Assembly (NCBI GenBank): GCA_022644775.1
Contig: JALCHN010000012.1
Location: 1-44,707 of the forward strand
Direction: 5' to 3'
Length of the DNA stretch: 44,707 bases
Source of the DNA: Eggerthellaceae bacterium
GTDB lineage: Bacteria > Actinomycetota > Coriobacteriia > Coriobacteriales > Eggerthellaceae
Shown: positions 2,480 through 33,944 of the stretch, in pieces
How positions within the stretch are numbered: position 1 is the stretch's first letter
Layout of the letters: every line of letters begins with the position of its first letter
The notes under the pieces: model-generated
Told to the model about the DNA's origin: nothing
Seen by the model: only the letters and a program-made list of their open reading frames with translations
The model's database searches: none
Translations under genes and position numbers: made by a program

Positions 2480-3283
2480 ATGTACTATTCCGATCCCCTG
2501 AGCTCGTTGGAATCGAACTCGTCCTTGCTCGGCACCGGAGTGCTCGCTGGCGTGCTGAGCGTCGTCGCCGTTCTCGCCTTCATTGCCCTCTGCGTAGCAG
2601 GCTACATCATGCTGCTGGGCAAGAACGCCTCGCATCGCACGAGCGCACTCGGCCGCTTCTTCAACTTCGACCATTTCTATATCGAGAAGGTCCTGCAGGT
2701 CCTCAACCTCATCGCCGCGGTGGGCATTGCCGTGTTCGCCTGCTGGCTGGCGCTTTCGTCGTTCGGATCGCCCCTGCTCATCCTGCCGGGCATTTTGCTG
2801 GGCGCCCTTGTGTTCTTCGTGGGGCAGTTCGTGAACCGCATCATCTTCGAAGGCGCCCTGCTCTTCGTGCGCCTGGTAACCGACACGCAGGCCATACGCA
2901 ACACGGTGGCCGGCCCGCGCACCATGGACGAGCCGCCCGCGCCTGCGGCGCCGTTCGCGCCCGCGAGCGCGTATCGTTCGCCCGCTGCCGTCGCGCCCGT
3001 GGCGCCCGCTGATACGCCGGTCGCCCCGACCGCCGCAGCAGCGCCTGCGCCGGCCCCTTCGGCCCCCGAACCTCCGGCGGCTGCGCCCGCACCGGCGCCG
3101 GCCCCCGCTGAACCTCAGACGCCGGCACCTGCGCCCGAAGCACCTGCGGCTACTGCACAGCAGCAGGCCCCGGCTCCGCCCGTGCCGCCCGCGTTCACGC
3201 CCAAGCGCACCTGGCACTGCCCTGCGTGCGGCACCGAAAACGACGGCAACTTCTGCGTGAGCTGCGGCACCAAGCGCCCGTAA
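2480..3283 (+). CDS. DUF4282-like membrane protein with C-terminal zinc ribbon
   Basis: This is a 267-residue protein. Residues ~17-45 form a membrane helix. A DUF4282-like unit with two further helices follows (FFNFDHFYIEKVLQVLNLIA, then two hydrophobic stretches to ~130). Next is a ~100-residue linker made almost only of Pro and Ala. The C-terminus is a double CxxC zinc ribbon: CPACG and CVSCG within the last 22 residues. The layout suggests a membrane-anchored protein that holds a small metal-binding domain away from the membrane. No enzymatic function is known for the family. The start at 2480 is supported by AGAAAGGA (2466-2473). A strong terminator follows. Confidence 0.75.
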   Translation: MYYSDPLSSLESNSSLLGTGVLAGVLSVVAVLAFIALCVAGYIMLLGKNASHRTSALGRFFNFDHFYIEKVLQVLNLIAAVGIAVFACWLALSSFGSPLLILPGILLGALVFFVGQFVNRIIFEGALLFVRLVTDTQAIRNTVAGPRTMDEPPAPAAPFAPASAYRSPAAVAPVAPADTPVAPTAAAAPAPAPSAPEPPAAAPAPAPAPAEPQTPAPAPEAPAATAQQQAPAPPVPPAFTPKRTWHCPACGTENDGNFCVSCGTKRP

Positions 3284-3315: not shown

Positions 3316-3360
3316 CTGAAAGCGCCCTGCCTCCCGAACCGGGCGGCAGGGCGCTTTCAG
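3316..3360 (+). terminator. terminator after DUF4282 gene
   Basis: A perfect 16-bp stem (3316-3331 with 3345-3360) lies 33 bp after the stop codon. The 5' arm begins CTGAAAGCG and the 3' arm ends CGCTTTCAG. There is no T-run after it. Confidence 0.6.
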
Positions 3361-3605: not shown

Positions 3606-3850
3606 TGGCACAGATGTGCCGCTGTGCAGTGGATTTCTCGGGTCGATGGCAGAGACGTGCCGAAATGCAGCATCAAATCGAGCCGAATCGCGCGAATCGG
3701 TTCCGCCGGCGGCGAACCCTTTCGCAAAACCCCAGGTCAGGGATTCGTGCGCAAAGCCCGTCCGAGGGGCGCCGGCCATCGCATACTGCACAACGCGCGA
3801 TCTCTGCCATCGGGCGGCAAAATCCACTGCACAACGCGCATTCTCTGCCA
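3606..3850. repeat. 245-bp palindromic element, copy A
   Basis: A left arm (3606-3670) and right arm (3786-3850), each exactly 65 nt, are inverted copies of each other (45 of 65 identical by eye). They flank a 115-nt centre. Within each arm a TGGCAGAGA-type motif occurs twice, and GCAGTGGATT is perfectly conserved between arms. A second copy with identical 65-115-65 geometry lies 381 bp downstream. The surrounding gene-free DNA (3361-3605, 3851-3986, 4232-4445) shows nothing else I can name. A minus-strand frame through the element (3836 to 3612) is open and resembles the matching frame of copy B, so a short protein cannot be fully excluded. Confidence 0.75.
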
Positions 3851-3986
3851 CCTGCGCGCAGGAATCGCTCATCTGGGGATAGCACGTGCGGGAAAAGCGA
3901 GCTCGCCAAGTGACGGAGCGCCGGGGTCGGGCGACGGGGCGTCACGGCCGAATGCGGCGTCGTGCCCGGCCGCGGCACACGAAGAC

Positions 3987-4231
3987 TGGCAGAGATGGGC
4001 AGATATGCGGTCGGTTTCGATCGCCGCTGGCTGAGATAGGTAGAAATGCGGTCTTCAACTGGGCCGAATCACGGGAATCGAGCCCGTTGGTGATGCCGCA
4101 ATTTACAAAACCCCAGTTCAGGAAGTCGCCTGCAAGGTCCGCCCCAGAGGAGCCCGTCATCGCAAACCGCATAACGCGCGATTTCAGCCAACGGACGGCG
4201 AAATCGACCGCACATCTCATGATTCCAGCCA
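3987..4231. repeat. 245-bp palindromic element, copy B
   Basis: The left arm 3987-4051 and right arm 4167-4231 match each other at 44 of 65 positions and flank a 115-nt centre. There is no length difference from copy A anywhere. The left arms of A and B match at 44 of 65. Both arms of B carry GCGGTCG where both arms of A carry GCAGTGG, so the arms have changed together within each copy. That pattern suggests selection for pairing or for paired binding sites. No transposase gene or clear target duplication is visible. Confidence 0.75.
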
Positions 4232-4445: not shown

Positions 4446-5036
4446 CTAGGCCGTCTTCGTCGCCGCCAGCAGTTTCGAAAGCAGGGCCACGAGCTGAGCC
4501 TGCTCTTCGTCGGATAAGCAGGCCATGAGCTCGCGATACGACGTCGTATGATGGGCGGCGCGACGCCTGCCTTCGGCCATGCCCTCGTCGGTGAGCTGCA
4601 TGAAGCCCGGGCGGCCGTCGACTTCAACCATCTTCAGATAGCCGGCGGCCTCGAGCGCCTCGATCGAAGGCAGCAAGCCGGCCGTGTTCGTGTAGAGCAG
4701 CTTGGCCATGATCGAGGGGGCCGCCAGACCGCGGCGGCGCATGACGGCGCAGAGCAGCTTGTCCTCCACGCGCTCGCCGGCCGCGGCGCGCAGCTTGTGC
4801 GGCAGCACGGTGAGCAGGTGCTCGATGCGCACGTCGGCAGGAGCGCTCGCATGATGCTTGGCGGCGGGCTTCGCCGCGGGTTTGGCCGCGGGTTCGGCCG
4901 CAGCCGCAGCCGGCCCTTCCGCGCGCTCCTTCTGCGCCTGCTCCCACCGGTAGGCGCCCAACCCGCACATGAAGTGGTCGAGCCGGCAGTGGAAGTGGCA
5001 GCCGGGGCAAACGGCTGCAGCGGAAGCGTGCGTCAT
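4446..5036 (-). CDS. winged-helix (MarR/PadR-like) protein with Cys-rich N-terminus
   Basis: This is a 196-residue protein. Residues 10-24 contain CPGCHFHCRLDHFMC, a compact Cys/His cluster likely to bind metal. An Ala/Lys/Pro-rich linker follows (~40-65). Residues ~70-196 look like a MarR/PadR-type winged helix: a predicted recognition region AAPSIMAKLLYTNTAGLLPS and a wing-like GRPGFMQLTDEGMAEGRRR. It is probably a transcriptional regulator, perhaps metal- or redox-sensing (inference from the cluster). AAAGGA precedes the ATG. It lies 117 bp downstream of a NarL-type response regulator on the same strand, with an inverted repeat in the gap that could be an operator. Confidence 0.65.
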   Translation of the reverse strand: MTHASAAAVCPGCHFHCRLDHFMCGLGAYRWEQAQKERAEGPAAAAAEPAAKPAAKPAAKHHASAPADVRIEHLLTVLPHKLRAAAGERVEDKLLCAVMRRRGLAAPSIMAKLLYTNTAGLLPSIEALEAAGYLKMVEVDGRPGFMQLTDEGMAEGRRRAAHHTTSYRELMACLSDEEQAQLVALLSKLLAATKTA

Positions 5037-28350: not shown

Positions 28351-28414
28351 CAGTTGCGAGCCGACGCCGCGCCAAAGGGTACACCTGATGAGTTCTGCTT
28401 ATGAATCGCAACTG
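28351..28414 (-). promoter_or_regulatory. alternative pairing in riboswitch leader
   Basis: On the minus strand CAGTTGCGA (28414-28406), at the 3' side of the aptamer, can pair perfectly with TCGCAACTG (28359-28351), which is followed by TTTC. Formation would disrupt the aptamer end, so this is the likely expression platform. Whether it terminates transcription or changes access to the start is not clear. Confidence 0.5.
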
Positions 28415-28477
28415 GCTGCCATCGGTTGAAGGCCCTATAGCTTTGCGTCGCCGCCTTTCGGCGGGTTTGCCCAAAGC
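28397..28477 (-). ncRNA. c-di-GMP-I (GEMM-I) riboswitch
   Basis: The minus strand shows the class signature in order. GGGCAAACC comes first. A 5-bp stem CCGCC/GGCGG is closed by a GAAA tetraloop. Then come GACGCAAAGC, the GGGCC segment, and AUGGCAGCCAGUUGC, matching the conserved 3' side. A short closing stem GCUU (28477-28474)/AAGC (28400-28397) is possible. A -10 box TATAGT (28486-28481) lies directly upstream, placing the transcript start at the aptamer. The gene controlled is the GGDEF protein at 28318, with the EAL gene behind it. Confidence 0.88.
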
Positions 28478-28480
28478 GGA

Positions 28481-28486
28481 ACTATA
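28481..28486 (-). promoter_or_regulatory. -10 box of riboswitch-GGDEF-EAL transcript
   Basis: TATAGT on the minus strand lies about 7 nt before the expected start of the aptamer. No good -35 box is seen 16-18 nt further upstream. Confidence 0.5.
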
Positions 28487-33611: not shown

Positions 33612-33944
33612 GACCCGCCTTCCGTCCGCGTACGTTGGCATCAGGGTACCGCACAGAAGAGAGGAAATTTCACATCCGCAATCGGTTTTTCCCTGCGACT
33701 TGCCTCACCCTCGCGGAGCGAAAACGAGCAGAAACCCCGATTCGTCACGGTTCGAACCATGGCACGAACCGTGCTATTTCGATTCATCACCCCAGGTCAG
33801 CGCGTTGTCGGCCGCTCGTTTTACCAAGCGTGGAGAAAATATCGAGACCGAGGGAAATCCCCATTCGCCGACTTTAGCGACCGTTTGCCAGCGCTATGCT
33901 CCCAAATCGTTATTTGACGTTCACAAATCGAAAGGACCAACGTC
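33612..33944. other. gene-free divergent intergenic region
   Basis: This region lies between two divergent units and has no convincing ORF. It contains a 9-bp hairpin CACGGTTCG (33746-33754)/CGAACCGTG (33765-33773). A 12-nt match ACCCCAGGTCAG (around 33789) is shared with the centre of the 245-bp element copy A, possibly a remnant of that element. Promoters for both flanking genes should lie here, but I cannot place them. Confidence 0.4.

Follow-up and report, generated by a model that had tools for sequence, protein, structure and literature searches.

Anatomy of the repeat elements

The window, a stretch of 44,707 nucleotides from an Eggerthellaceae genome, contains two 245-bp copies of a palindromic element, designated A and B. 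As originally noted, the copies start 381 bp apart and align without gaps. They sit between convergent genes and past a terminator-like hairpin. Judged by eye, the left gene appears to encode a membrane protein with a Pro/Ala-rich linker and a C-terminal zinc ribbon, and the right gene a MarR-like protein. The features of the locus are as follows.

2480..3283, + strand: left neighbour gene (ORF), 3′ end toward the elements
3316..3360, no strand: terminator-like hairpin 3′ of the left gene (inverted repeat I4, 95% complementary)
3606..3850, + strand: element A, type I, 245 bp, oriented by its central motif
3606..3631, + strand: outer left 26-bp unit of A, TGGCACAGATGTGCCGCTGTGCAGTG (unit scoring matrix, 31.3 bits)
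3647..3672, + strand: inner left unit of A, 41 bp from the outer unit (unit scan)
3725..3740, + strand: central motif of A, CAAAACCCCAGGTCAG, exact match to the consensus from aligned loci
3784..3809, − strand: inner right unit of A, inverted (37.6 bits)
3825..3850, − strand: outer right unit of A, inverted (unit scan)
3987..4231, + strand: element B, type I, 245 bp, GCGGTC subfamily
3987..4012, + strand: outer left unit of B (34.1 bits)
4028..4053, + strand: inner left unit of B (unit scan)
4106..4121, + strand: central motif of B, CAAAACCCCAGTTCAG, 1 mismatch (sequence)
4165..4190, − strand: inner right unit of B, inverted (unit scan)
4206..4231, − strand: outer right unit of B, inverted (22.5 bits)
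4446..5036, − strand: right neighbour gene (ORF), 3′ end toward the elements

The right arm of each element is the two-unit array of the left arm, inverted, with the unit consensus TGGCASAGATNNNNCGATGTGYAGTA. Each 26-bp unit is itself an imperfect dyad, GCACA-N10-TGTGC. The arms had been described as symmetric around a centre in a 65-115-65 geometry; the symmetry held, but the boundaries are better placed at 67-111-67, each arm consisting of unit (26)-linker (15)-unit (26). A and B are 68% identical overall (left arm, 66%; centre, 68%; right arm, 72%), and the two arms of a single copy are 69% identical in A and 67% in B. The units fall into two subfamilies, ending in GYAGTA (A) or GCGGTC (B), and the copy-specific sequences that had been noted, GCAGTGG in A and GCGGTCG in B, are indeed present in both arms of the respective copy. 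A 12-nt match to the centre near 33789 also exists (ACCCCAGGTCAG), but without surrounding units. Elsewhere in the window, a c-di-GMP-I riboswitch aptamer was detected at 28404-28481 (−), and positions 1-60, at the contig start, contain homopolymer runs (T7, C6 and C7) that probably mark a low-quality end.

Copies in Hugonella

Full-length relatives occur elsewhere in the source genome with E values down to 1.5e-56, far beyond chance. A sequence model of the arms gave 15 elements in the source genome and 12 in its only congener, Hugonella massiliensis, a few of them partial. The absence of further copies, which would have counted for a neutral duplication, is thus contradicted. In a scan of 84,980 species genomes, the pattern of two tandem units was matched only in the genus Hugonella.

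The geometry of these elements is tightly constrained. Across the 27 elements of the two species, tandem units are spaced by 41 bp in 57 pairs, 42 bp in 5 and 43 bp in 1. Total lengths are mostly 224-225 or 245 bp, values that differ by two helical turns, and three types were distinguished:

Type I: 2+2 units, 245 bp
Type II: 2+2 units, 225 bp, two helical turns shorter than type I
Type III: 3+3 units, 224 bp, innermost units 7-8 bp apart

In the six-unit elements (e.g., L096, L106 and L108), the 7-8 bp centre leaves no room for the central motif.

All 27 elements lie outside predicted genes, many of them between convergent genes or past tRNAs. Eleven, including two orthologous pairs, lie 126-406 bp from a tRNA gene and in every case 3′ of it. 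Sites common to both species include one past tRNA-Leu(caa) and that of L096/L108. Elements of A type (GCAG) and B type (GCGG) tend to pair: they are 381 bp apart in the window and 639 bp apart on contig C56 (L094 2851-3704), and on contig C17 they lie at both ends of a block of ~13.8 kb (L088 613-837 and L089 5432-5667). This block of the source genome (G000:C17:613-14667; L088 613 to L089 5667) contains a molybdopterin-oxidoreductase-like operon and a LuxR regulator. In H. massiliensis, a single element (L101 7870-8094) lies between the orthologous outer genes.

The possibility that the elements are tRNA-linked attachment sites was rejected: tRNA genes often adjoin the elements in Hugonella, but not in other genera. 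Matching duplications of tRNA 3′ ends were not found around the elements, apart from inverted fragments in L093 and L110. A tRNA-Pro fragment of at least 24 bp recurs inverted beyond the element in both species, at +1600 (L093) and +1004 (L110) from the 3′ end of tRNA-Pro.

A central motif common to many Eggerthellaceae

The motif CAAAACCCCAGGTCAG, with at most one mismatch, was found in 90 of 138 Eggerthellaceae genomes, representing 32 of 48 genera of this family of gut bacteria. As a control, the reversed motif pattern was found in only 2 of the Eggerthellaceae genomes. In genera other than Hugonella, the motif often lies between inverted identical units of different, lineage-specific sequence: TGGCAGTAATCGGCAGTTTGGTACGC and GGCCAAAAATGACGACCTGACGAC in genome G004, GGTTCCAGAATTGAGCGGTTTGGTTC in G064 and GCACGAGATCTCGAGTTATAAGC in G063. 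A clear inverted arm pair was present at 49 of the 107 motif loci read, about half being without detectable arms, and one similarly arranged case occurred in another family of the class (L232). A phage origin was rejected: the tandem-unit pattern had no match in 2.9 million viral contigs, and the bare 17-mer, present in 12 viral contigs or approximately the number estimated by chance, was without arms in those examined.

Alignment of 111 loci extended the centre to YNRCAAAACCCCAGGTCAG-NNNN-TT. The two positions four bases past TCAG (T20 and T21) are each T in 54% of sequences, versus a background of 21%. The consensus for E. coli IHF is WATCARNNNNTTR, with an A-tract upstream; we take the extended motif, with its TT 4 nt past TCAG, to match this layout. 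The centre may be read as IHF-like on the strength of this resemblance between consensus sequences, the true IHF family being absent from the genomes concerned (see below).

Sequences similar to the motif occur in other settings. In Coriobacteriia, AAACCGCAGGTCAG, which forms the 5′ half of a terminator hairpin and is nearly identical to the element centre, often stands immediately past tRNA genes (L114, L136, L137, L094 4014 and L212-L235). The candidate explanation that the motif is itself half of a terminator was rejected: tRNA terminators share this 5′ half, and the arrays, except for L175, are without the complementary 3′ half. The motif 16-mer also occurs twice within a coding linker (QNPRS) of each of two genes, L034 848-2191 and L040 842-2035, the copies being 63 and 69 bp apart, respectively, and adjoining palindromes and AT-rich DNA. 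On reading their sequences, these genes appear to encode HTH-type replication initiators, and the motif regions are probably internal replication origins. Sites for bending proteins are common in such settings. Another very abundant intergenic repeat, GCCCAGTGGGCTGTTTC with its flanks, was observed in genus g5 (query 1501-1568). Among open-licence papers, we found none that deals with the motif or with palindromic repeats in Eggerthella and related bacteria.

Helical phasing of units and centre

The position of the motif was expressed as its offset from the dyad centre, a measure unaffected by arm trimming. In 42 elements, this offset follows a lattice of 5.15-5.2 bp with R 0.93; in 3000 random sets, the highest value was 0.59. 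The 42 elements are not independent draws, and the lattice holds across about nine genera. The offsets observed cluster near −21, −16.5, −11, −6, −0.5, 4.5, 9.5 and 15. As the step is half a helical turn, every unit is separated from the motif by an integral number of turns. Elements of the TGGCA family in G004 and G099 have a constant total length of 152-153 bp, and their motif occupies one of three places a turn apart.

The sequence data strongly support a DNA-level anatomy in which units and centre, as putative protein sites, share one helical face. Paired binding sites, one of the readings originally put forward, gain support both from the 26-bp dyad units at their fixed 41-bp spacing and from the conserved centre held in helical phase across genera. 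The whole-turn spacing of the candidate docking sites suggests a built-in DNA folding point between genes.

Proposed nucleoprotein complex

The best explanation of the anatomy and phasing, in our view as likely as not to be correct, is that each element serves as the DNA scaffold of a folded nucleoprotein complex similar to that of enterobacterial RIB (BIME-1) elements. The anatomy, phasing, copy number, intergenic position and absence of inversion seen in the sequence are consistent with this proposal, under which putative binding proteins would bend and loop the DNA and may contribute to the organisation of the chromosome or of transcription units. Specifically, a sequence-specific DNA-bending protein would occupy the conserved centre, and a dyad-binding protein, differing by lineage, would occupy the 26-bp units of both inverted arms. 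The bend would bring the arms together for the dyad-binding proteins to zip them, which would form an intergenic DNA hairpin loop. The arms could meet because units and centre lie on one helix face (~10.5 bp steps; 41-42 bp between tandem units).

HU/IHF was rejected as the binder: the family (PF00216) was absent in 12 of 12 Coriobacteriia genomes tested, in searches whose controls worked. Because these genomes are without HU/IHF, the best candidate for binding the centre would be the actinobacterial-type IHF (NF041260), which is unrelated to HU/IHF and was present in all 12. Actinobacterial IHF is usually regarded as weakly specific. Two paralogs of it occur in six genomes that have arrays, making 6 of 9 motif-bearing versus 0 of 3 motif-free genomes, a sample too small to judge.

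The RIB or RIP elements (BIME-1) of Escherichia coli were reportedly treated by Boccard and Prentki in 1993. In BIME-1, an IHF site is enclosed by two inverted REPs (PMC2817692). Like RIBs, the present elements are short, dispersed and intergenic, with two units inverted around a central site, here a putative IHF-like one. Location relative to the 3′ ends of transcription units, where RIBs are found, varies: most Hugonella elements lie at such ends, but placement is random in other genera. In contrast to RIBs, the units are neither REP sequences nor the sequences found beside the local RAYT gene. Moreover, Hugonella has two to three tandem units per arm at 41 bp, the helical lattice is strict, the HU/IHF family is absent from the 12 genomes tested, and unit sequence varies by genus around a conserved centre. 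We infer that the present elements work like RIBs without being members of that group.

Alternative explanations

A non-autonomous transposable element (MITE-like) is the foremost alternative, and we regard it as unlikely but worth weighing. The units would be end repeats bound by a transposase, the centre a host-factor site that helps the ends meet, and the phasing a record of which copies could move. Indeed, the elements resemble MITEs in being short and dispersed, with terminal inverted repeats and sharp edges. Hugonella, genus g5 (elements of about 140 bp) and G071 (about 210 bp) all show such dispersal of whole elements; orthologous places often differ in whether they have an element, the ends are lineage-specific, and many units begin with TG and finish with CA. 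However, target-site duplications are not seen, the comparison giving no excess and a distribution close to that of random boundaries. In G004, arms and centre are conserved but the linkers between unit and motif are not, even among copies with identical arms, which is unexpected for recent transposition. Furthermore, no transposase with matching ends was found in a search of the Y1 (RAYT) family, and the RAYT genes are flanked by palindromes other than the element units. Clean empty sites were sought as well, and intergenic DNA proved too diverged, even inside genus g5.

A RAYT/REPIN origin was rejected. The elements share with REPINs their nature as inverted palindromic intergenic repeats of population-like copy number, but no element units lie near the RAYT genes of these genomes, which carry their own, different palindromes. 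One or two RAYT-like (Y1) genes are present per genome in most genomes tested. They are each flanked by their own near-perfect inverted palindromes (e.g., CTGACAAATCGTCAGACTATTTGTCAGGTTTT; L265, L263, L264 and L266), and look like true REP/RAYT systems of Eggerthellaceae.

Slightly less probable is an operator pair for a DNA-looping regulator, in which two operators and a bending site control the neighbouring genes. As in the Gal repressosome and lambda-type intasomes, a bending protein seated in helical phase between two protein sites would join them, and the three-part geometry and phasing of the elements are alike. The subfamily co-change of all four units and the LuxR-family regulators adjoining some copies are also in keeping with such an arrangement. 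Against it, the copies have no promoter, operon or recombinase core in common; they occupy many loci whose neighbours have no function in common, encoding SecG, Asp23, CarD, shikimate kinase and transporters, and many of them are between convergent genes or past tRNAs.

A structured RNA with a long imperfect stem is very improbable. Covariation between the arms did exceed that of shuffled data, as would be expected under the folded RNA or DNA originally put forward (48 double-change cells versus 25.6 ± 4.0), and compensatory changes occur in the innermost hairpin of the orthologues L096 and L108. However, the signal is not stem-specific: covariation between tandem units, which are unable to pair with one another, matches in strength (z 3.8 and 4.5) that between stem partners (z 4.5 and 3.0), a result that speaks against selection on a folded RNA or cruciform. 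The co-changes are common to all four units of an element and hence track unit type, as expected if one protein reads all four. In addition, the middles of the units pair at chance between arms, the left and right consensus sequences differ, the DNA-helix phasing of the loop motif has no RNA rationale, and no Rfam match was found over the elements.

An invertible switch, in which a recombinase acting at the inverted units flips the centre, is very improbable. The units are inverted and often identical, a variable middle is common to both arms, and an integrase gene is found close to one copy (L102). Inversion is nonetheless disfavoured because, at all 8 orthologous loci compared between species, the motif points the same way relative to its flanks, and the arm middles are systematically different in Hugonella.

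Finally, a small protein family or a neutral duplication can be set aside: A and B are side by side and the minus-strand frame suspected of coding is open in both, but no frame is open in all copies, this one contains stops in 7 of 12 full-length copies, and duplication is unlikely given 27 copies of fixed geometry in two species and a phased conserved motif in other genera.

Implications

Returning to the RIB-like nucleoprotein complex, a broader reading may be offered tentatively, as a possibility that we hold to be doubtful. Bacteria without HU/IHF may have evolved their own RIB-like folding elements around actinobacterial IHF, conserving the centre, rewriting the docking sites by genus and keeping the helical geometry. 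If true, the elements would provide testable sites for DNA folding without HU/IHF, namely 27 in two genomes and one or more motif copies in the majority of the family's genomes, as well as a putative sequence-specific target for actinobacterial IHF. As the helical lattice is strict, the mechanism would be testable by simple spacing mutants.
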